Below the pieces are notes generated by a model. The model was not told the origin of the DNA. It saw only the letters and a program-made list of their open reading frames with translations, and searched no databases. The position numbers and the translations under genes were made by a program. From positions 1-39,646 of the IMG/VR virus record IMGVR_UViG_3300034121_002068: a stretch of DNA of 39,646 bases. One strand, given 5' to 3'. Origin of the DNA: a virus. Position 1 is the first letter of the stretch. Each line of letters starts with the position of its first letter. This document shows, piece after piece, positions 1,404 through 39,646 of this stretch.

Positions 1404-3599
1404 ATGGTCGATGCGGCCTCGGAAAACGACGATCGACATCGGGACGCGGCCAAACGACATCGCGATGCGATGGCGAAAAAATCTCGAGACGATTTCAAAT
1501 CTGTCGCCGAAATTGGCGAAATTCCGCCAGTCGGCAATCCGGAACGGCGTGAATCGTGTCGGTTGGATTTGCACAATTTTCTACAAATCTATTTTCCGGG
1601 GACTACCGGGAAAAGTCCGTTTTCACGCGATCATTTGCGCGTGATTGCGCGGCTGCAGGAAGCGGCGACTCAGGGGGGGCGATATTTTAACCTGGTCTAT
1701 CGTGGGTTCGCAAAAACCACAATCAGCGTCAACACGTGCCTGTGGGCGTTGGCCTATGGGCATCGGCACCTGGTGGTGCTGATTGGGGCCAATCGCGATG
1801 CGGCGAAGGACCTGTTGGACCAGTTCAAGGCGGAACTCGAAACCAACGATCTGTTGTTGGAAGATTTTCCGGAGATTTGCGTCGCTGTCAAAGCTCTCGA
1901 AGGGAAAAACCAACGTTGCAAAAGTCAGTGCCAAAGCGGGGAACTGACTCGGATTGAGTGGACGAAAGATCGGGTCGTTCTGCCGACGATTGCCGGGTCG
2001 GTGGCCAGTGGCGGCGCGGTGGTGACTCGGGGGATTACCTCGTCCATCCGGGGGATTGGTCATCGTCGGGCGGATGGGACGCAACAACGGCCGGATTTGG
2101 TCATCAATGACGATCTGCAGACGGATGCCTCGGCTGATTCGCCGCGGCAAGTGTCGAAGCGGCTGAATACGCTTTCGAAAACGATTATTAAACTGGCGGG
2201 GCATGACTCGACGATCGCTTGCGTGGTCAATGGTACGATCATTCAACGGGATGATCTCATGGACCGGCTGCGGGATCCGCTGCAGTATCCGGGGTGGCAA
2301 GGTGAGACGGTTCAGATGGTATCCGCCTGGTCGGATGCTCACGAGACGCATTGGTTGGGTGAATACGCTCGCCTGAGAAAGTCGTTCGATCCGGCGATGC
2401 CTGGCGATCAAGACCGCGCGAAAGCCGAAGCGAACGCGTATTACCTGGCTCATCGGGTCGCCATGGATACGGGCTGCGTGGTGTCGTGGGAACACTGCTA
2501 CGATCATGACCTTGAAGTGTCTGCGATTCAACACGCGTACAATTTTTTGATCGACGATGGCGAAGACGTGTTCGCTTCGGAATGTCAACAAAATCCGCTG
2601 CGGTCGGACGAAGATCAAGAGAAGCTGACTCAGAAGGATATCATCCACAAATTAAGCGGGTTGGCGCGGCGCGAAGTTCCGGGGAACGCTGAAAAGCTCG
2701 TGTGCTTCATCGATACTCAGGACGAATCGTTCTGGTTTGTGGTGGTCGCCTGGACTGCGGATTTCGCTGGGTTTGTCGTCGATTACGGGGCTTGGCCGGA
2801 TCAGCATTCGCTGGATGCGAGCAAAAAAAAACTGCGTCAAAGTCTGTCGCAAAAATACAAATCGTTGAAAACTCGTGAAGCGCGTTGGCGGGCGGGGCTG
2901 TCCGATCTCTGCGACGAAGTACTCGCTCGGGAATGGCTCGATTGTGAGGGCCGCGGCCATACGATCGCGGCGGCGTTTGTGGACGTTGCCGACGGTGACT
3001 CGTCCCTCGAAGTGAGGAGCTGGGTGAAGGCCTCGACCAAGTGGAACAAGATTTTACGGCCGTCGATGGGGGCGAAGATGCGGCCGGGGCAAACGAGTTT
3101 TGCTTCGGCTAAAAAGGGGAAGGACGAACTCCGCCGTGGTCTCAATTGGGTCGAGAATCGAGACAAAAAAATTCGGGGCGGTTCGATCACGACAATTGAC
3201 GTCAATTGGTGGAAGTCATTTTTGGTCAATCGGTGGAAAACGTCTTCGCCTCGACCGAAGGGAGATCCGGGGTATCGACCGTGCGAGCCGGGCGGGCTTT
3301 ATTTGTGGGGGCTGGATCCGATTGTTCATTCGACGTTCGGAAGTCATCAGACTGCCGAATATGCCAAACGACTGACCGATGCCAAAACGGGTATCGCGGT
3401 CGATTTTTGGGATCTAAAACCGAATCGACCGGATAACGAGTACTTCGACGGCCTGGTCGGTTGCTGCGTGCTGGCCAACATGGTTGGCGGAATCGAGCTG
3501 CGGGACAGCGGGTTAAATCTGGCCTCTTCGAAGGGCCGGAAACGGTTGACGGCGGCGGAACTCAAGGAATTGAGGGAGCGGAAAAAGAATGGCAACTGA
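1404..3599 (+). CDS. terL: Terminase large subunit
   Basis: This 731-residue protein is the ATP-powered DNA-packaging motor. The N-terminal ATPase domain has FSRDHLRVIARLQEA, a Walker A-like VYRGFAKTT (about residues 98-107, a terminase-type variant P-loop), and a Walker B PDLVINDDLQTD (about 229-240). The C-terminal RNase H-like nuclease domain starts near residue 433 with CFIDTQDE (acidic metal-binding residue), continues with VDVADGD, and ends with WDLKPN. It is at the long end for TerL proteins. ATG 1404 follows a GGGGG ribosome site. The 3' end overlaps the zinc-ribbon gene by 11 nt. No clear small terminase was found next to it. Confidence 0.9.
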   Translation: MVDAASENDDRHRDAAKRHRDAMAKKSRDDFKSVAEIGEIPPVGNPERRESCRLDLHNFLQIYFPGTTGKSPFSRDHLRVIARLQEAATQGGRYFNLVYRGFAKTTISVNTCLWALAYGHRHLVVLIGANRDAAKDLLDQFKAELETNDLLLEDFPEICVAVKALEGKNQRCKSQCQSGELTRIEWTKDRVVLPTIAGSVASGGAVVTRGITSSIRGIGHRRADGTQQRPDLVINDDLQTDASADSPRQVSKRLNTLSKTIIKLAGHDSTIACVVNGTIIQRDDLMDRLRDPLQYPGWQGETVQMVSAWSDAHETHWLGEYARLRKSFDPAMPGDQDRAKAEANAYYLAHRVAMDTGCVVSWEHCYDHDLEVSAIQHAYNFLIDDGEDVFASECQQNPLRSDEDQEKLTQKDIIHKLSGLARREVPGNAEKLVCFIDTQDESFWFVVVAWTADFAGFVVDYGAWPDQHSLDASKKKLRQSLSQKYKSLKTREARWRAGLSDLCDEVLAREWLDCEGRGHTIAAAFVDVADGDSSLEVRSWVKASTKWNKILRPSMGAKMRPGQTSFASAKKGKDELRRGLNWVENRDKKIRGGSITTIDVNWWKSFLVNRWKTSSPRPKGDPGYRPCEPGGLYLWGLDPIVHSTFGSHQTAEYAKRLTDAKTGIAVDFWDLKPNRPDNEYFDGLVGCCVLANMVGGIELRDSGLNLASSKGRKRLTAAELKELRERKKNGN

Positions 3600-28810: not shown

Positions 28811-29722
28811 ATGACGAAAAGTCACACTCCGTCGACCGTTGTTTGTTGGGGAGATGTTGCTCAACCGTTGTCTGCCTGGGCCGACGGCCTGGGCTGTCCG
28901 GTGCAAACGTTACTCGGTCGACTCGATCGAGGGTGGACGATTCAAAAAACAGTGACGTTGCCAGTCGGTTTGACTGGGGGATCCAATCGCGGTCAAACGT
29001 TGGCGCCGGAAGTGCTGACTCCGGTTGAGCTGCTGGCGGTGCTCAACGCCAATAATAAAGGGCTGACCGGGGTGCGAAACAAGGCGCTGATTGTCGTTGG
29101 TTGGCGGGCGGGTTTGCGGATTTCCGAGGCTTTGTCGTTAAAGCTGGGGGACCTGAACCGAGAACAGCAAACGGTTAGAATCCTTCACGGTAAAGGCGAC
29201 AAGGCGCGGACGGTCGGGTTGGATGCGTCCGCCTGGGCGATGGTTGACCAATGGATCGTCGCGCGGCAATCAGCGGGGATCGTGCCGACGGCGCCATTGT
29301 TTTGTACGACGGACGGCGGCAAGCTGGCCGATCGATACGTGCGGGAGCTGCTGCCGCGGCTGGCTCGCGATGCGGGCATAAACAAACGGTGTCATTTTCA
29401 CGGCCTTCGGCACACCATGGCCTTCGAGCTGGCATCAGAAGGCGTGCCGATGCATATAATCCAACAACAGTTGGGGCACTCCAATTTGGCCGTGACGTCG
29501 CGGTATATCAGTCACTTGAATCCGGCGGAAACGATTCACCGAATGAAGTCTCGCCAGTGGGGCGGCGATGGTGCATCAACCGGCGGGACGATGGGCCATG
29601 TTACCTTGGCGGTTCCGGATTGGCTTGAACGGCTCCGCGCCGACATCGGCGACCGATTGATCAGTTTCACCGATGCGAGGCGCGACGCGGTTGAATTCAA
29701 GGTTGTGGTGACCGTGTTTTAA
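28811..29722 (+). CDS. Xer-like tyrosine recombinase with an atypical N-terminus
   Basis: A 303-residue protein. The catalytic domain (about residues 68-240) has all tyrosine recombinase residues: Arg in GWRAGLRISE, Lys in LHGKGDKAR, His-x-x-Arg in FHGLRHTMA, His in LGHSNLAV and the nucleophile Tyr in TSRYISH. The usual helical core-binding domain is missing. Instead residues 10-55 look like a small helix-turn-helix module of the type W-A-x-x-L-G ... R-L-x-R-G-W (LSAWADGLGCPVQTLLGRLDRGWTI). A 60-residue C-terminal tail follows the Tyr domain. It could integrate the phage or resolve dimers. Its end overlaps the leftward RHH gene by 26 bp. Confidence 0.85.
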   Translation: MTKSHTPSTVVCWGDVAQPLSAWADGLGCPVQTLLGRLDRGWTIQKTVTLPVGLTGGSNRGQTLAPEVLTPVELLAVLNANNKGLTGVRNKALIVVGWRAGLRISEALSLKLGDLNREQQTVRILHGKGDKARTVGLDASAWAMVDQWIVARQSAGIVPTAPLFCTTDGGKLADRYVRELLPRLARDAGINKRCHFHGLRHTMAFELASEGVPMHIIQQQLGHSNLAVTSRYISHLNPAETIHRMKSRQWGGDGASTGGTMGHVTLAVPDWLERLRADIGDRLISFTDARRDAVEFKVVVTVF

Positions 29723-30002
29723 CGGCGGCCGTGCGTTTCGCCTTGGTCGCCGGTGCTGCGGTTGCAGGAATGGCCGGGGGTTGTTTCGGTGGTTGCAATC
29801 GCGATTTCGGTCTTCCCATGGGTATCGGGGCTGCCAGTTCAATTCCCAATTGTTGGCGGCACGATTCTATCGAAGGATGCGAGCTCAACAGGGTTCGGAT
29901 AGTTTGACCGACGTTGCCTCGGTGTTCGTCGGCGACTCTCTGGACAAGCTCAAACAAATCAATTGGCATGGTCATATTGAATTTACGCGTTGTCATCGTC
30001 AT
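29697..30002 (-). CDS. Ribbon-helix-helix-like protein with a Pro/Ala tail
   Basis: A 101-residue leftward protein. ATG 30002 overlaps the upstream stop by ATGA, with AAGGAG 11 nt upstream. The N-terminus has a beta strand (KFNMTMPIDLFELVQRV) and two helices (VGQTIRTLLSSH), as in RHH proteins. A basic Pro/Ala/Lys tail follows (PPAIPATAAPATKAKRTAAVK). It is the last gene of the leftward operon and may autoregulate it. The layout matches the RHH protein at 171-479. Confidence 0.6.
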   Translation of the reverse strand: MTMTTRKFNMTMPIDLFELVQRVADEHRGNVGQTIRTLLSSHPSIESCRQQLGIELAAPIPMGRPKSRLQPPKQPPAIPATAAPATKAKRTAAVKTRSPQP

Positions 30003-30253
30003 TGCGATTTCCACTCCTTAATTTTGGCGTTTGCTCGTCTGATCGCTTTGCGTGATTCGGAAGCCATTTCGCGAGCCCAATCGCGTCGTTCGCTTTTATC
30101 AGCAGTTTGACCTGCCGTATCGACTCGTGCGCTCAGCCACCCGTCAATCGTCGTGTAAGTATATCCATCCATATCACAGGGTATGGAATATTGGTAAGCG
30201 CCAAAGTTGCTGATATGAACCGATTCTGATTTGCTTGTTTTGACGTTATTCAT
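29999..30253 (-). CDS. Hypothetical protein of the leftward operon
   Basis: An 84-residue protein. The N-terminal half is beta-rich and aromatic (YQYSIPCDMDGYTYTTIDGWLSARV); the C-terminal half is a charged helix (RRDWAREMASESRKAIRRANAKIKEWKSQ). No family recognised. It is coupled to the RHH gene by ATGA. Similar small proteins of phage early operons are often host-takeover or defence-related, but nothing here shows this. Confidence 0.6.
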   Translation of the reverse strand: MNNVKTSKSESVHISNFGAYQYSIPCDMDGYTYTTIDGWLSARVDTAGQTADKSERRDWAREMASESRKAIRRANAKIKEWKSQ

Positions 30254-30328
30254 GGTTTCATTCTTTTTTTGGGTTGGTCCGACGGGCTGTGGGGATTAAT
30301 CACCGTGCCGATGCTGCTTCGGTTTGGC

Positions 30329-30544
30329 TCATGGTCCAGCAAATTCGATTCGCTTGCCATTGCGGCCCAAACGAATCTCCACATCGTGGTAGTTCATGTC
30401 TTTTCGGTTTGCGTTAAATTTTTTGCAAAACGCTCGGGCTTCGGCGACATTGTCAAACTCTCCCACGACTGTGTGAGTTGCGCCGGGTGTCCGTGGTGCG
30501 TGTACTGACACTTTGCATTCGTTGACGGTTTCCATGGTTTCCAT
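30329..30544 (-). CDS. Hypothetical protein of the leftward operon
   Basis: A 71-residue protein. ATG 30544 has AAGGA 9 nt upstream (a second ATG, 12 nt further in, also fits). It has a beta-alpha-beta pattern (CKVSVHAPRTPG, then VVGEFDNVAEARAFCKKFNANR, then HDVEIRLGRNGKRIEF), similar to small DUF-type domains that bind nucleic acid or metabolites, but no family is recognised. Unknown function. Confidence 0.55.
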   Translation of the reverse strand: METMETVNECKVSVHAPRTPGATHTVVGEFDNVAEARAFCKKFNANRKDMNYHDVEIRLGRNGKRIEFAGP

Positions 30545-30629
30545 GGTCTCAATTCCTTTAGTTCAGATTGTTTCCCGAAACACATGTGACGGGCTTGGGG
30601 GGGCTTGGGGAAGGGGTTCTGTTTAATGC

Positions 30630-30794
30630 TTACTTCCAGTAATTCCAGCTTTTCTGCAGCGCTACGTCGGGCGAGAAACCCTCGTCCAAAAATAGTTGGA
30701 CGTCGAACAGAATGTCCGTTTTGTATTTAGAGTTCTTGATTTTGGCGATCAATTCAGCACATTGTTTTTCTTCCCAACATTCAGTCGTCTTCAT
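30630..30794 (-). CDS. Small hypothetical protein, first gene of the leftward operon
   Basis: A 54-residue protein starting at ATG 30794 with AGGA 8 nt upstream. Helical (CWEEKQCAELIAKIKNSK, then ILFDVQLFLDEGFSPDVALQKSWNYW). It is the first gene after the leftward promoter at 30847-30875. An upstream in-frame extension exists, but the promoter lies inside it, so it is not used. Function unknown. Confidence 0.6.
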   Translation of the reverse strand: MKTTECWEEKQCAELIAKIKNSKYKTDILFDVQLFLDEGFSPDVALQKSWNYWK

Positions 30795-30846
30795 AGTGTC
30801 AATCCTGTTTTGGTTTGTTTGTGTCAGTCGTTTGAGTGACACGAAT

Positions 30847-30875
30847 ATCATTACAGCTTATCGACCGATAGTCAA
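30847..30875 (-). promoter_or_regulatory. Leftward promoter for the four-gene operon
   Basis: Read on the minus strand: -35 TTGACT (30875-30870), a 17-bp spacer and -10 AATGAT (30852-30847; 4 of 6). The predicted start lies near 30840, and the first gene starts at 30794. The 20-bp dyad at 30874-30893 overlaps the first bases of the -35, so a bound protein would block or control polymerase. Confidence 0.6.
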
Positions 30876-30893
30876 TTATGTACGCACATAATT
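30874..30893. promoter_or_regulatory. Operator-like dyad overlapping the leftward promoter
   Basis: AATTATGTACGCACATAATT: 8-bp perfect arms (AATTATGT / ACATAATT) around ACGC. It covers two bases of the -35. It is unlike the CAAGCA-type palindromes near the repressor gene, so a different protein would bind it. The RHH protein of the operon it controls is a candidate. Confidence 0.6.
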
Positions 30894-31099
30894 TCTGAAA
30901 ATTACTGAAATACTTTGGGCAAAAAACGTCGCGTGCATGCCCGCGGGTCCTTCCCGAACAATTCCATTGATACCCCCTGCGGGAACAATCACTGAGCGCG
31001 ACTCCCTTTCTTTCTGCCGTTTCCGGGCTGTTTTTCGCTGAAAAATTTTTGCGGTAGATCCCCAATTAAGTTCGAGCCCTAGTGGGGGCAAATTAAGAT

Positions 31100-31121
31100 T
31101 GGCTCATGAATTCATGGGCCA
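31100..31121. promoter_or_regulatory. 22-bp near-palindrome before the secreted-protein gene
   Basis: The palindrome has the centre CATGAATTCATG, flanked by GGC/GCC half-arms with one mismatch, then T-A. It ends 43 bp before the ATG of the secreted protein. Probably a protein-binding site or an RNA hairpin in that gene's leader. It has no sequence in common with the other operators here. Confidence 0.45.
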
Positions 31122-31674: not shown

Positions 31675-31702
31675 TTGAAACTTGTGCAGTGGCTCGCATA
31701 AT
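31675..31702 (+). promoter_or_regulatory. Promoter giving a leaderless repressor mRNA
   Basis: -35 TTGAAA (31675-31680), 16-bp spacer, -10 CATAAT (31697-31702). The start expected 7 nt after the -10 is position 31709, the A of the repressor ATG itself. The only purine-rich sequence (AGAAGG) touches the ATG and cannot act as a Shine-Dalgarno. Confidence 0.6.
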
Positions 31703-31708
31703 AGAAGG

Positions 31709-31951
31709 ATGGAAACCTTGACTCTGCATAATCGATTTCAGAAAAAACTACGCGAAGCGCTGGAGGTGAACGGCTGGTCCCAAACGGATCTGGCAAAATC
31801 CCTCGATTGTGCTCCGCAGATGGTTTCCCAATATCTTTCCGGAAAAAGGATGCCGGGGTTGGATGTTGTTGAAAAATTCGCGATCGCCTTGGGTTTGCCC
31901 GATGCTGCCTCGCTGATCGATAATTCTGAAATCCTACAAGCAGTTGCTTGA
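31709..31951 (+). CDS. Cro/CI-type XRE repressor
   Basis: An 80-residue HTH protein (METLTLHNRFQKK...). The HTH covers about residues 20-58: LREALEVNGWSQTDLAKSLD, CAPQMVSQYLSGKRMPG, then LDVVEKFAIAL. It lacks the C-terminal protease domain of CI, so it would not be cleaved by RecA; it is like Cro or short repressors. It is probably the lysogeny/lysis regulator. Two matched palindromes follow at 31937-31950 (inside its own last codons) and 31956-31969. An upstream TTG would add 9 residues but the promoter at 31675-31702 excludes this start. Confidence 0.8.
   Translation: METLTLHNRFQKKLREALEVNGWSQTDLAKSLDCAPQMVSQYLSGKRMPGLDVVEKFAIALGLPDAASLIDNSEILQAVA
31937..31950. promoter_or_regulatory. Operator O1
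   Basis: CAAGCAGTTGCTTG, a palindrome with one mismatched pair. It overlaps the last codons of the repressor gene and three bases of the -35 of the rightward promoter. Its centre is 19 bp from that of O2, about two helical turns, allowing side-by-side binding. Confidence 0.65.
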
Positions 31952-31976
31952 CTCGCAAGCAATTGCTTGTAACAAT
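31948..31976 (+). promoter_or_regulatory. Rightward early promoter with built-in operator
   Basis: -35 TTGACT (31948-31953), which begins in the repressor's last codons, then a 17-bp spacer and -10 AACAAT (31971-31976; with a 16-bp spacer, TAACAA). The spacer is filled by operator O2. The start would be near 31983. It would drive the integrase and replication genes. A repressor on O2 would block it directly. Confidence 0.6.
31956..31969. promoter_or_regulatory. Operator O2 in the promoter spacer
   Basis: CAAGCAATTGCTTG is a perfect 14-bp palindrome placed between the -35 and -10 of the rightward promoter. It shares 13 of 14 bases with O1. This is the strongest evidence that the adjacent XRE gene codes for their repressor. 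Confidence 0.7.
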
Positions 31977-31998
31977 CCTGCCGTCGAATGACGTGCAG

Positions 31999-32050
31999 TT
32001 GAGATTTGACTCAAAGCTCGCCTTCGATAGGCGGGCTTTTTTCGTTTTTT
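31999..32050 (+). terminator. Intrinsic terminator preceded by a small hairpin
   Basis: A perfect small hairpin (TTGAG, loop, CTCAA; 31999-32014) is followed by a strong one: AAGCTCGCCT, loop TCGAT, AGGCGGGCTT (10 bp, one G-U), then TTTTTTCGTTTTTT. It would end the repressor mRNA, and also a transcript started at 31983 after about 60 nt. Confidence 0.8.
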
Positions 32051-32432
32051 GCGATTGAACTCCCTGCCGATTGTCGGGCCTCGCCGTTTGTGGTGGGGCT
32101 CTTGATCCATCTTTCTTGTCTGGGGGAATTCTCATGCGTCGCTTCTACAGAATCCTGCGCGTTGTCTGCTGGAAGTATGGGCGGACGATGTGCCGTCCGC
32201 AAAATCCGCTTCATTTCTACGATCATTTTCATGATGCGCTGTTTTGATTTGCGAGGAATGTTTTTTTCAAAAACTGTGCCTCAATTCTGGTTTTTCAATC
32301 TATTGCTTCTTGCTCATGATGGGGATTTTCGGATGCTATTCGCCGAAATTATTGATCGCCAATTGGTTTTGGTGGTCTTCCGGGCGAGTTGCGGCTCGCC
32401 TGTGGATTTTGCTCTCAGGGGAGTGGGTGGTT
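32051..32432 (+). other. Leader between early terminator and integrase
   Basis: This 382-bp stretch holds the 37-codon ORF at 32134-32247 and otherwise no convincing gene. An in-frame extension of the integrase runs through it (hydrophobic, with no ribosome site), and other long frames here have no gene-like product. It is the likeliest place for an attP, but no clear core or arm sites can be picked without the host junctions. Confidence 0.45.
32134..32247 (+). CDS. Possible small basic peptide before integrase
   Basis: A 37-residue ORF with ATG 32134 and GGGGGA 7 nt upstream. The product (MRRFYRILRVVCWKYGRTM..., then PLHFYDHFHDAL) is basic and aromatic. It might be an excisionase-like factor because it lies before the integrase, but no such motif is visible. 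Weakly supported. Confidence 0.4.
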   Translation: MRRFYRILRVVCWKYGRTMCRPQNPLHFYDHFHDALF

Positions 32433-33413
32433 GTGTTACTCAACGAATGGTTAACCGTGTATTGCGAACGGCGGCGGACGTTGCGGCCGTCGACGGTGGC
32501 GGTGTATCGGTCGCATATCGGGTCGCTTTGCCGGTGGTATTTGGCGACGCGGGGCGCGAGTCTCGAGACTTGCTCCTTGTCGCTGGATGTGGTGGAAGAT
32601 TTCCTGGCGGCGATGCGAACGGCGGAGAATTGGGCGCCTCGGACGCAAAATACGTGCAGGTCGTCTATCAACGCGGTTTGGAATGGGGCGATTCGGGCGC
32701 GTTTGGCGCCGGAAACCAACAATCGGTTGGTGGCCTCGTCTGCGGTGCCTCAACGGATGCCGATTGCTTGGTCGATCGACGATCTAAAGCGGTTGGTCGA
32801 GTTCGCCGGGGCTCTGCGTGGGCGTCGAAAAAATCGGTTTGCGACGCGTCGTCGCGAGTTTTGGCAATCGTTGTATCTGTTTCTGTACGAAACGGCTTGC
32901 CGTTTTTCGGCGGCGTTACTGGTCCGGCCTGGGGATATCGATTTTGCTCGCAACGTGGTCAAGTTGCGGGCCGAAAATTCCAAAACGGGAACCGATCATT
33001 TGGTTTCGATTTCGAAAAATACGGCGGGCATTTTGAAAACCATGATTGCCGATCATTGCGAGCGCGGGGTGTTTGGCGTGGGGTCGGAACTCGTTTGGCC
33101 AAGCGGGGCGCATGGAAAAAACGAGTTGTATCGTCAACACAAGGAATTCTTGCGGCAGTGCGGGCTGACCTGCGACCGTTATCACATGTTTCATTGTTTC
33201 CGTCGGACGTGCGCGACGCAACTAACGATTGTGAGTGGCATCGAACAGGCTTCGAAGGTTTTGAACCATTCCTCGGTTGCGATGACGCGGCGGTCGTATG
33301 TCGACGCAAGCCAGTTGGCTCACGTCGACGCAACGGCGTTGCTTCCGAGTCCGTTTGCCGACGATCCGGTCGACGATTTCCCGGCGACGATCAAGTTTTC
33401 TCGGTTTGCCTGA
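32433..33413 (+). CDS. int: Phage integrase (tyrosine recombinase)
   Basis: A 326-residue protein from GTG 32433 with GGGGAG 8 nt upstream. The N-terminal SAM-like core-binding domain is present (WLTVYCERRRTLRPSTVAVYRSHIGSL). The catalytic domain has the Arg in YETACRFSAAL, Lys in ENSKTGTDH, the HxxR motif in FHCFRRTCAT, the final His in LNHSSVAMT and the Tyr in RSYVD. It is probably the site-specific integrase for lysogeny. An in-frame upstream extension would be hydrophobic and has no ribosome site. A second recombinase lies at 28811-29722. Confidence 0.88.
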   Translation: MLLNEWLTVYCERRRTLRPSTVAVYRSHIGSLCRWYLATRGASLETCSLSLDVVEDFLAAMRTAENWAPRTQNTCRSSINAVWNGAIRARLAPETNNRLVASSAVPQRMPIAWSIDDLKRLVEFAGALRGRRKNRFATRRREFWQSLYLFLYETACRFSAALLVRPGDIDFARNVVKLRAENSKTGTDHLVSISKNTAGILKTMIADHCERGVFGVGSELVWPSGAHGKNELYRQHKEFLRQCGLTCDRYHMFHCFRRTCATQLTIVSGIEQASKVLNHSSVAMTRRSYVDASQLAHVDATALLPSPFADDPVDDFPATIKFSRFA

Positions 33414-36899: not shown

Positions 36900-36969
36900 G
36901 ATTCGTTCCGGGAAGACGTTTCTAGTTGGTTTTGTGTTTTTCTTGTTGTTTTTTTGGGGGAGGTTTTTC

Positions 36970-38613
36970 ATGGTTGAAGGGTTAAAGACGTTGGCGGCGG
37001 AACGGAAAAGCCGGGCGAAAGCGGCGAAGGTTGCGAAACCGTCTAAACCTGCTGTCAATATTTTCGAATCGCTGGAAATTATCATGACGGCGTATATTCC
37101 GGTGGCCAATATCGTGCCATCACGGCACAATCCGCGCAAGGTTTTCGATGAACGGTTAATCACTCGATTGTCGCAAAACATTGCAGATATTTGCGAACTG
37201 AATCCGATTACGATTCGTCAAGAAACGAACGAGTTGATCGACGGTGAAACTCGGTTGCGTGCGGCGATTGAATCGGGGGTGCCCGCGCTGCGGTGTATCA
37301 TTGTCAAATGTACGGACGAACAAGCGGCGATTGCGCGGCTTCAGTCGTCTATGGATCGAGCGGAACTGAATGCGATTGATAAGGGCAGGGCATTTCAGGC
37401 AATGTTGGAACAACAGGACCTGACACAACGTGAGTTGGCGGAAATGTTGGGGATTGATCAAAGTACCATCGCCAATTTAACTCGGCTGTTAAAGCTGCCT
37501 GGGGAGTGGCAAGACAAGGTGATTGCGGGCGAAATCACGGGGTCGGCTGCGCGAGATTTGGTCCCGTGGGCGAATGAACCAGCGGTGTTGGATAATTTGT
37601 TAAAACGCATGATTTCCATGAATCCGGATAAGTTTGCCAGCGAATTTCGTTGGGAGTTGCAAAACGCGATTGAGTTGGGATCGAGACCTATGAAAGGGAG
37701 TTATCTGAAAAAAGATGGTTCGCGTTGGTGTTCTGTCGTTTTCACGAAGTTGTCTGATGCTGATCGCGAATTGTTGCGGATTAGAAAAATTAAATTTCAC
37801 GACGATGGTCCCGAACCTGAAGAGGAACGCGCTTTCAACGTGGAATTGTGGCAACAATTGCAAGACGGGGAAGAAGACCTGCGGGTCGCAAAACTTGAAA
37901 AACGCGAAGCCATTTATGCGAAAAACGGAACTGCAGCAAAAAACGTTGATGCTAAAAAAGCGGAAGAACTGAGTTCAAAATCTGCGTTGAAGTTTTCGAA
38001 GGATTTGTTTGAACATAAAATCTGGTGGTTGCAATCGCGCTTAGTGGATTGGGTGCAACGACTGGCGAACGAACAAGAATTAGCTGCGTTGGCTATGTGG
38101 TTTGCCATGTCGAGCGGCGCGGGCCTCCGGGGAAGAACGTTCCGAAACATTTTACGAGATGATGTTCGAAGCGTGAACAACGAAGATTTAATGTTTTTAA
38201 TGAAGTGTTCCGGAAAAATTACGACTGATCCGGATGATTATTGGAAAAAAATTCGGCAGCTATTAGCGGTTTGGATTTCTGAAAACGATTATCGGTTGAA
38301 TGATTCCGCGTTCCCCTCCGATGCGATTTTGAAGCTGGCAAACGAATACGAGATTCATATCGCCGAACAGTGGACATTTACTCTGTCAATTAAGGAAGAA
38401 TCCGGTGGGTTTGGCGGTGCGTCGACTGTGTTACCTCAATTTTTAAAGATTTTCACGGTTGAAGGGTTAAAGTCGTTGGCGGCGGAATGGAAAATTCTGC
38501 TTTCTTCGAATTCGTTAAATCGGCAAGCGTTAATTGCGGAAATTGAATCGAGCACGCAAAAAAAACCTGCGCCAAAGTGCCTTGTGAACGTGAAGCCGTG
38601 TTCGTTGGTTTGA
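36970..38613 (+). CDS. ParB/Spo0J-type protein with a long C-terminal region
   Basis: A 547-residue protein from ATG 36970 after GGGGGAGG. Residues 45-210 form a ParB N-terminal/KorB-HTH unit: IVPSRHNPRKVFDERLI, LIDGETRLRAAIESG (the GxxR CTP-binding box; usually GERR), and TQRELAEMLGIDQSTIANLTRLLKLP. The C-terminal 330 residues are unlike normal ParB dimer domains. No ParA partner is visible, so the role may be DNA organisation or transcription control rather than partition. Its first codons (VEGLKTLAAE) recur near the C-terminus (VEGLKSLAAE). Confidence 0.75.
   Translation: MVEGLKTLAAERKSRAKAAKVAKPSKPAVNIFESLEIIMTAYIPVANIVPSRHNPRKVFDERLITRLSQNIADICELNPITIRQETNELIDGETRLRAAIESGVPALRCIIVKCTDEQAAIARLQSSMDRAELNAIDKGRAFQAMLEQQDLTQRELAEMLGIDQSTIANLTRLLKLPGEWQDKVIAGEITGSAARDLVPWANEPAVLDNLLKRMISMNPDKFASEFRWELQNAIELGSRPMKGSYLKKDGSRWCSVVFTKLSDADRELLRIRKIKFHDDGPEPEEERAFNVELWQQLQDGEEDLRVAKLEKREAIYAKNGTAAKNVDAKKAEELSSKSALKFSKDLFEHKIWWLQSRLVDWVQRLANEQELAALAMWFAMSSGAGLRGRTFRNILRDDVRSVNNEDLMFLMKCSGKITTDPDDYWKKIRQLLAVWISENDYRLNDSAFPSDAILKLANEYEIHIAEQWTFTLSIKEESGGFGGASTVLPQFLKIFTVEGLKSLAAEWKILLSSNSLNRQALIAEIESSTQKKPAPKCLVNVKPCSLV
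38457..38494 (+). repeat. Internal copy of the ParB-like gene's start
   Basis: 36 of 38 bases match 36972-37009, which is the segment just after the ATG. The copied ATG is now ACG. The two segments keep the same reading frame within one gene and code for VEGLK(T/S)LAAE. This suggests a past tandem duplication in which a downstream copy's start fused into the upstream gene. Confidence 0.8.
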
Positions 38614-38892: not shown

Positions 38893-39273
38893 ATGGTGCG
38901 AGAAATTGTGAGTCATCGGGTCAACGGGCTGAATGAATTGCTTCGAGTGGTTGCGGTCGATGAGCCGGGGGCCGGTGGGGCCAATCACGAATATATGATT
39001 CGGCTGGATACGACTGTGCCGACAAGTGGTTCGTTTGCCTGGAATACGATCAAATTTCAGCACGGGCCGATTTTGGAAGTTGGCGTCAACGGGATTTCGA
39101 ACGAAGCGTTGCTGGCCATAGTTGAAGACCGTTTGGCGTCTTTTCAAGAGGGGCCGTTTGCGTGCCGCGAAAACGCGGTGGCGTTGACCAAAATTCAAGA
39201 GGCGATGATGTGGTTGCAGTGTCGGACGCGCGGCCGGATCATGCGGGGTGTGGAAGGGACGTCCGAAACTTAA
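38893..39273 (+). CDS. Acb2/Tad1-family cyclic-nucleotide sponge (anti-CBASS/Thoeris candidate)
   Basis: A 126-residue protein from ATG 38893 after GGGGTG. The N-terminus REIVSHRVNGLNELLRVV...DEPGAGGANHEYMI and the core FQHGPILEVGVNGISNEALLA, then FQEGPFACRENAVALTKIQE and MMWLQCRTR...RGVEGT, match the Acb2/Tad1 hairpin family. Acb2 and Tad1 sequester cyclic oligonucleotides and gcADPR, blocking CBASS and Thoeris immune signalling. The ALTKIQEAMMW segment is the best-known signature of Acb2. The family call is firm; which signals this member binds is not visible. It is a single-domain protein. Confidence 0.8.
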   Translation: MVREIVSHRVNGLNELLRVVAVDEPGAGGANHEYMIRLDTTVPTSGSFAWNTIKFQHGPILEVGVNGISNEALLAIVEDRLASFQEGPFACRENAVALTKIQEAMMWLQCRTRGRIMRGVEGTSET

Positions 39274-39601: not shown

Positions 39602-39646
39602 ATGCAATCGAGTTGGCGGAATCGTGCGAAACCAATTATAGCGGCG
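39602..39646 (+). CDS. Start of a gene cut off by the window end
   Basis: ATG 39602 follows GGGAGG. The first 15 residues (MQSSWRNRAKPIIAA) open a frame that runs off the end. The SWRxRAKPII pattern resembles the N-terminus of small conserved phage proteins, but more sequence is needed. If the molecule were circular, the frame would continue to about base 123 with a product that does not look like that family, so the continuation probably lies outside the window. Confidence 0.45.
   Translation, partial: MQSSWRNRAKPIIAA

Follow-up and report, generated by a model that had tools for sequence, protein, structure and literature searches.

The question raised by this locus is what a small regulator gene controls when it is followed by two palindromes, a promoter-like site and an intrinsic terminator. 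We analysed the locus in its window, the whole IMG/VR virus record of 39,646 b. A contig that is ~100% identical to the window over their overlap (L008) bridges position 39646 to position 1 with 6 extra bases, so the genome closes at 39,652 bp, as a circle or a permuted map, and is complete. Nearly all large genes of the window are on the plus strand, and the following were recognised outside the locus itself:

Start 1404, plus strand: terminase, gpA-type
Start 4070, plus strand: portal
Start 7148, plus strand: capsid
Start 15249, plus strand: methyltransferase
28811-29722, plus strand: tyrosine recombinase, the first of two
Start 33782, plus strand: 5'-3' exonuclease
36934-38613, plus strand: ParB with an HTH_ParB domain
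38893-39273, plus strand: Acb2/Tad1 hairpin domain protein (PF24729)

The best relative of the portal in the genome collection was from a planctomycete MAG (52% identity), and the host is probably a planctomycete. Portal-related viral contigs were mostly too short to cover the regulator region. Two different tyrosine recombinases occur in this one phage (28811-29722 and 32433-33413), and the PF24729 family comprises phage anti-defence sponges (CBASS/Thoeris). Four small ORFs, the last of them weakly Arc-like (E 0.036), are found on the minus strand at 29697-30851, so that the genome is not co-directional throughout. A 20-bp inverted repeat at 30874-30893, AATTATGT-ACGC-ACATAATT, abuts the -35 of a minus-strand promoter-like site, and the minus strand of 29697-30893 is a possible second regulatory region.

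The locus under study, with its flanks, contains the following features:

31071-31091, plus strand: candidate attP core like a tRNA 3' end, GTTCGAGCCCTAGTGGGGGCA, recognised by eye from a T-loop/acceptor pattern and positioned as in a related locus, L161
31165-31641, plus strand: gene for a small exported protein, with a signal-peptide-like N-terminus in its translation; L161 has an exported protein in the matching slot
31675-31702, plus strand: candidate promoter of the regulator gene, TTGAAA-16-CATAAT, 10/12, ending 6 nt before the ATG at 31709
31709-31951, plus strand: XRE/Cro-CI-type HTH regulator (XRE), 80 aa (P0001); PF01381 E=1e-11, PHROG transcriptional regulators
31937-31950, no strand assigned: operator-like palindrome O1, CAAGCAGTTGCTTG
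31956-31969, no strand assigned: operator-like palindrome O2, CAAGCAATTGCTTG, perfect
31948-31976, plus strand: candidate promoter TTGACT-17-AACAAT with TGT before the -10, 9/12
31978-31998, plus strand: dyad CTGCCGTC-GAAT-GACG-T-GCAG
31999-32014: small hairpin
32013-32039, plus strand: intrinsic terminator, an 11-bp stem and then TTTCGTTTTTT; the same slot is occupied in the related loci L158, L159 and L163
32134-32247, plus strand: possible 37-aa ORF with a GGGGGAA ribosome site, taken from translation; coding status uncertain
32433-33413, plus strand: tyrosine recombinase/integrase; PF00589 E=8.5e-15, phrog_1 integrase E=1.2e-36

The gene beside the palindromes had been taken for a repressor gene, and both the PF01381 and the PHROG matches assign its product to the HTH_3/XRE regulators, with a domain score of 45.1 bits against a curated cut-off of 23. 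A 434-like reading of its recognition helix, with a CAA half-site and two shared Gln residues, was considered but was not counted as evidence. All our promoter scans presuppose a sigma-70 consensus, and promoters in a planctomycete host may not conform to it; on that scale the 10/12 site at 31675-31702 is the best plus-strand match in the window, and an XRE mRNA made from this candidate promoter would be leaderless or nearly so. Further upstream, the tRNA-like stretch at 31071-31091 had no counterpart with <=1 mismatch in any of 392 planctomycete genomes, and viral contigs contained no exact copy of it; its identity as an att core matching the tRNA ends of relatives is a weak lead. A 22-bp near-perfect palindrome, TGGCTCATGAATTCATGGGCCA, lies beside it at 31100-31121.

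O1 and O2 were found as the original prediction had described them, as two palindromes of 14 bp each that differ by a single base and lie 19 bp apart from start to start, with a gap of 5 bp. O1 spans the last four codons of the XRE gene and the two first bases of its stop codon (CAA GCA GTT GCT TGA), and the arms of both sites together make up a 16-5-16 inverted repeat. The window has two perfect 14-bp palindromes, of which a single one would be unsurprising, and O2 alone was unremarkable on a single-palindrome score (28/300 shuffles). A pair of near-palindromes with <=2 bases different and <=100 bp apart, a criterion looser than the actual pair, was seen once in the window and once in total among 100 dinucleotide-preserving shuffles of the whole window. 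No further copies of O1 or O2 were present elsewhere in the window at <=2 mismatches. A dimeric repressor would be expected to bind two sites of this kind, each symmetric in itself, and XRE is the putative binder.

Comparison with other genomes did not recover these sites. The same palindromes were found neither beside the XRE relatives nor in the 392 planctomycete genomes, and the exact pattern of the operator pair had no match in viral contigs. Binding of XRE to O1 and O2 is thus without comparative support; identical sites are not expected, since the recognition helices differ among the XRE relatives. A looser pattern matched 63 viral contigs (L063-L125), in many of which the variant CAAGCCCCAGCTTG recurs at intervals of 24, 33 or 34 bp. 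These spacings are close to codon-step multiples, and we therefore read the matches as coding tandem repeats; such CAAGCCCCAGCTTG repeats imitate palindromic operator pairs in pattern scans. Six loose-pattern contigs that departed from these spacings or from this sequence were inspected, and none had an evident XRE relative next to the sites.

The promoter-like site at 31948-31976 is interwoven with the palindromes, its -35 (TTGACT, 31948-31953) overlapping O1 and O2 filling the spacer before the -10 (AACAAT, 31971-31976). A promoter lying over the palindromes and beginning in the last codons of XRE had been proposed, and the site has exactly this placement, but its 9/12 match is not above chance, as ~2 hits of this quality are expected per 3 kb on both strands (shuffles of the 3-kb region). 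By the match alone it is no more than chance would give, and it is a candidate. Three of the seven plus-strand promoter hits of the window fall within 31675-31976. Palindromic sites overlapping a promoter-like site next to an XRE gene are the arrangement of a phage repressor-operator switch.

The strong terminator expected after the promoter-like site is present at 32013-32039 and ranks among the top two terminators of the window. Beyond it, no clear gene precedes the recombinase at 32433-33413, after which come the exonuclease and ParB genes, all three co-directional with XRE. The intervening 37-aa ORF (32134-32247) had no family match, and the sigma-70 scan found no promoter of at least 9/12 between the terminator and the integrase.

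Profile and protein searches placed the closest relatives of XRE in Planctomycetota genomes and on one 52-kb viral contig; by the XRE protein alone, no close relatives were found in viral contigs or phages. The recombinase used as query returned only two large-ORF recombinases, both without an XRE gene. A tRNA gene lies just upstream of XRE, and co-directional with it, in 7 of the 8 close-family loci with flanks examined (L157-L163, with tRNAs for Phe, Met, Ser, Gly, Phe, Lys and Met); the eighth, L164, shows no tRNA within the <500 bp available upstream. All six loci with enough sequence have a tyrosine recombinase downstream of XRE and in its direction. In L161 the tRNA is followed by an exported protein, XRE and the integrase in turn; the phage keeps this order from 31165 on, where the exported protein gene is followed by XRE, the terminator and the tyrosine recombinase. 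A -10-like TAGACT or TACACT stands 6-7 nt before the XRE ATG in L157, L158, L159 and L162, as in the phage. Small XRE genes directly after tRNA genes form a recurring family in planctomycete elements (L157-L163, L126), often as tandem pairs in one genome (G221).

The phage thus resembles the planctomycete elements with the order tRNA, XRE and tyrosine integrase (L126, L157-L161) in XRE family, gene order and direction, with a terminator in several of them; its recombinase is co-directional, and its terminator stands between XRE and the integrase. It differs from them in that the operators are not conserved and its own tRNA end is a candidate. Palindromes downstream of XRE exceeded shuffles only in L159 and, weakly, in L157, and these single sites are only loosely comparable to O1 and O2. 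The hit downstream of XRE in L163 is the terminator of that locus. The parts of the phage region, their order, the layout of the family and the terminators of the relatives were observed directly. In L158, L159 and L163 the XRE unit is likewise separated from the integrase by a strong intrinsic terminator, and we therefore read 32013-32039 as closing the XRE unit and insulating what lies beyond; the proposal that it forms a special barrier on the early operon is not borne out.

We give roughly an even chance to the view that this region governs lysogeny from the attachment side of a temperate tailed phage genome, with XRE on O1 and O2 keeping the integrase and early genes off. XRE would be made from its own promoter directly upstream (31675-31702), on a transcript that would end at the terminator (32013-32039), and XRE dimers would bind O1 and O2, which, at 19 bp centre to centre, would present roughly the same face of the DNA. 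Once bound, XRE would shut the co-directional promoter lying across O1 and O2 and would halt any polymerase that continues out of the XRE gene; in the lysogen, the integrase and the early genes that follow would stay off as a result. The terminator may also serve as an insulator, keeping out transcription that arrives from the XRE unit or the host side. We infer that XRE binds the operators, that the promoter is active and that the integrase is under this control. RNA from the promoter at 31948-31976 would mostly stop at the terminator, and its repression alone therefore does not explain control of the integrase. The main phage repressor could also be another protein, and the minus-strand operon at 29697-30893 has a palindrome of its own.

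The original prediction gave the promoter a different role, in which a repressed early promoter yields a 60-nt RNA that stops at the terminator, and either the early genes are reached only when hairpins before the terminator cause antitermination, as at the put sites of HK022, or the short RNA itself acts. The promoter-like site and the strong terminator do lie 60 nt apart, and the RNA of 31983-32042 (60 nt) folds better than its shuffles (z = -4.0), mostly owing to the terminator. The dyad (31978-31998) and the small hairpin (31999-32014) also exist as sequence. However, with the presumed start at 31983, the first 5 nt of the dyad would precede the transcript, and the RNA would lack most of the 5' arm that the dyad needs (31978-31985); this dyad could form only in read-through RNA from upstream, and the 60-nt RNA is predicted to fold into another hairpin. 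The put RNAs of HK022 are ~70 nt long with two long stem-loops (PMC9378689), whereas only 30 nt are available here ahead of the terminator. The likeness to them is that of hairpins near an early promoter; the required stems are not within the phage RNA, and neither sequence nor covariance evidence links the two. No Rfam family matched, and the terminator has counterparts in the relatives as the end of the XRE unit. Antitermination of the put type as stated was rejected, as the two stem-loops are not contained in the nascent RNA before the terminator, and we consider a functional 60-nt RNA of either kind to be very unlikely. The inverted repeat could instead act within the XRE mRNA, as a 16-bp hairpin at its end (31935-31971), either a stabilising element or an RNase III cleavage site, the further hairpins and the terminator then forming an ordinary 3' UTR. 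The RNA of 31930-31978 folds at -23.7 kcal/mol (z = -7.9), and L126 has a 16-nt hairpin across its XRE stop codon (3236-3276). A hairpin does not need arms that are nearly identical and individually palindromic, features which two protein dimer sites explain; as each arm is itself palindromic, we favour two dimers over an action in RNA only, which appears improbable.

Other readings keep O1 and O2 as protein sites. They may serve another protein, either a recombinase or excisionase within attP or the phage ParB acting on parS-like sites: a tyrosine recombinase lies next door, ParB with its HTH_ParB domain is 5 kb off, and a 16-5-16 inverted repeat has the general shape of a recombination site. 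Palindromic arms would be unexpected for a recombinase, however, the comparison with L161 puts the att site upstream of the exported protein and XRE, the genes scanned included no recognised ParA, and parB does not lie near the site; we regard this reading as unlikely. XRE or another regulator on O1 and O2 might also act as a DNA-bound antiterminator or roadblock on transcripts from the XRE promoter, in the manner of AimR. XRE is a small HTH protein unrelated to AimR and is not known to have antitermination activity. The arbitrium aimR-aimP-aimX system does share with the phage a regulator gene, palindromic sites, an intrinsic terminator and a target that are co-directional, and no clear promoter was found between the terminator and the integrase, as reported for aimX (PMC10769878). 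In phi3T and SPbeta, however, the terminator is upstream of the AimR site and AimR acts on the aimP transcript (PMC10769878), the reverse of the order here, where O1 and O2 are ~43 bp upstream of the terminator; AimR is moreover a peptide-sensing regulator of another family. An AimR-like action seems distinctly unlikely. Identity with arbitrium was rejected, as the region has only the 80-aa HTH_3 protein, with no AimR-type regulator and no AimP peptide gene seen. A broader version strikes us as a long shot: from paired operators inside the end of its own gene, a DNA-bound regulator would decide whether co-directional transcripts, begun at the gene's own promoter or at the tRNA beside the prophage, pass the terminator into the integrase, with no divergent promoter involved, and this switch would serve the whole family of planctomycete tRNA-integrated elements.

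Taken as lysogeny control by XRE on O1 and O2, the region resembles those of the lambda, 434 and P22 type, in which XRE/HTH_3 phage repressors act at paired operators. It shares with these a small HTH_3 protein and two near-identical palindromes over promoter elements, about two helical turns apart. It differs in that its XRE has no C-terminal oligomerisation/cleavage domain, and in that the sites, only two of which were found, are at the 3' end of the repressor gene and not in a divergent promoter region. The promoter of mycobacteriophage L5 lies at one end of the genome, well away from the repressor gene, and L5 has many stoperators; the phage has one operator pair, in the repressor's own tail. 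The L5 repressor gene is co-transcribed with the leftward early genes of the right arm (PMC5712189). In L5 (gp71/Pleft), as in the phage, the repressor gene runs in the same sense as the repressed early arm, so that co-orientation, put forward as a novelty relative to lambda, was already known. Terminator T1 of Tn916, near the end of that element, blocks transcription from outside (PMC11658703); it resembles the phage terminator as an intrinsic terminator that serves as an insulator, although Tn916 is an ICE and the role in the phage is suggested by layout.

The control region is real and tidy, and mostly ordinary for its mobile-element family. With its repressor-operator region at the end of the regulator gene and inside a layout that recurs in planctomycete elements, it is a variant of known control regions. 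In the literature searched, we found no description of the recurring tRNA-XRE-terminator-integrase layout of planctomycete elements and no dedicated study of lysogeny control in planctomycete phages, which appears to be little studied. This layout provides a testable model for how such elements remain integrated. The phage itself is a compact case with two operators, its regulator and target sharing one direction.
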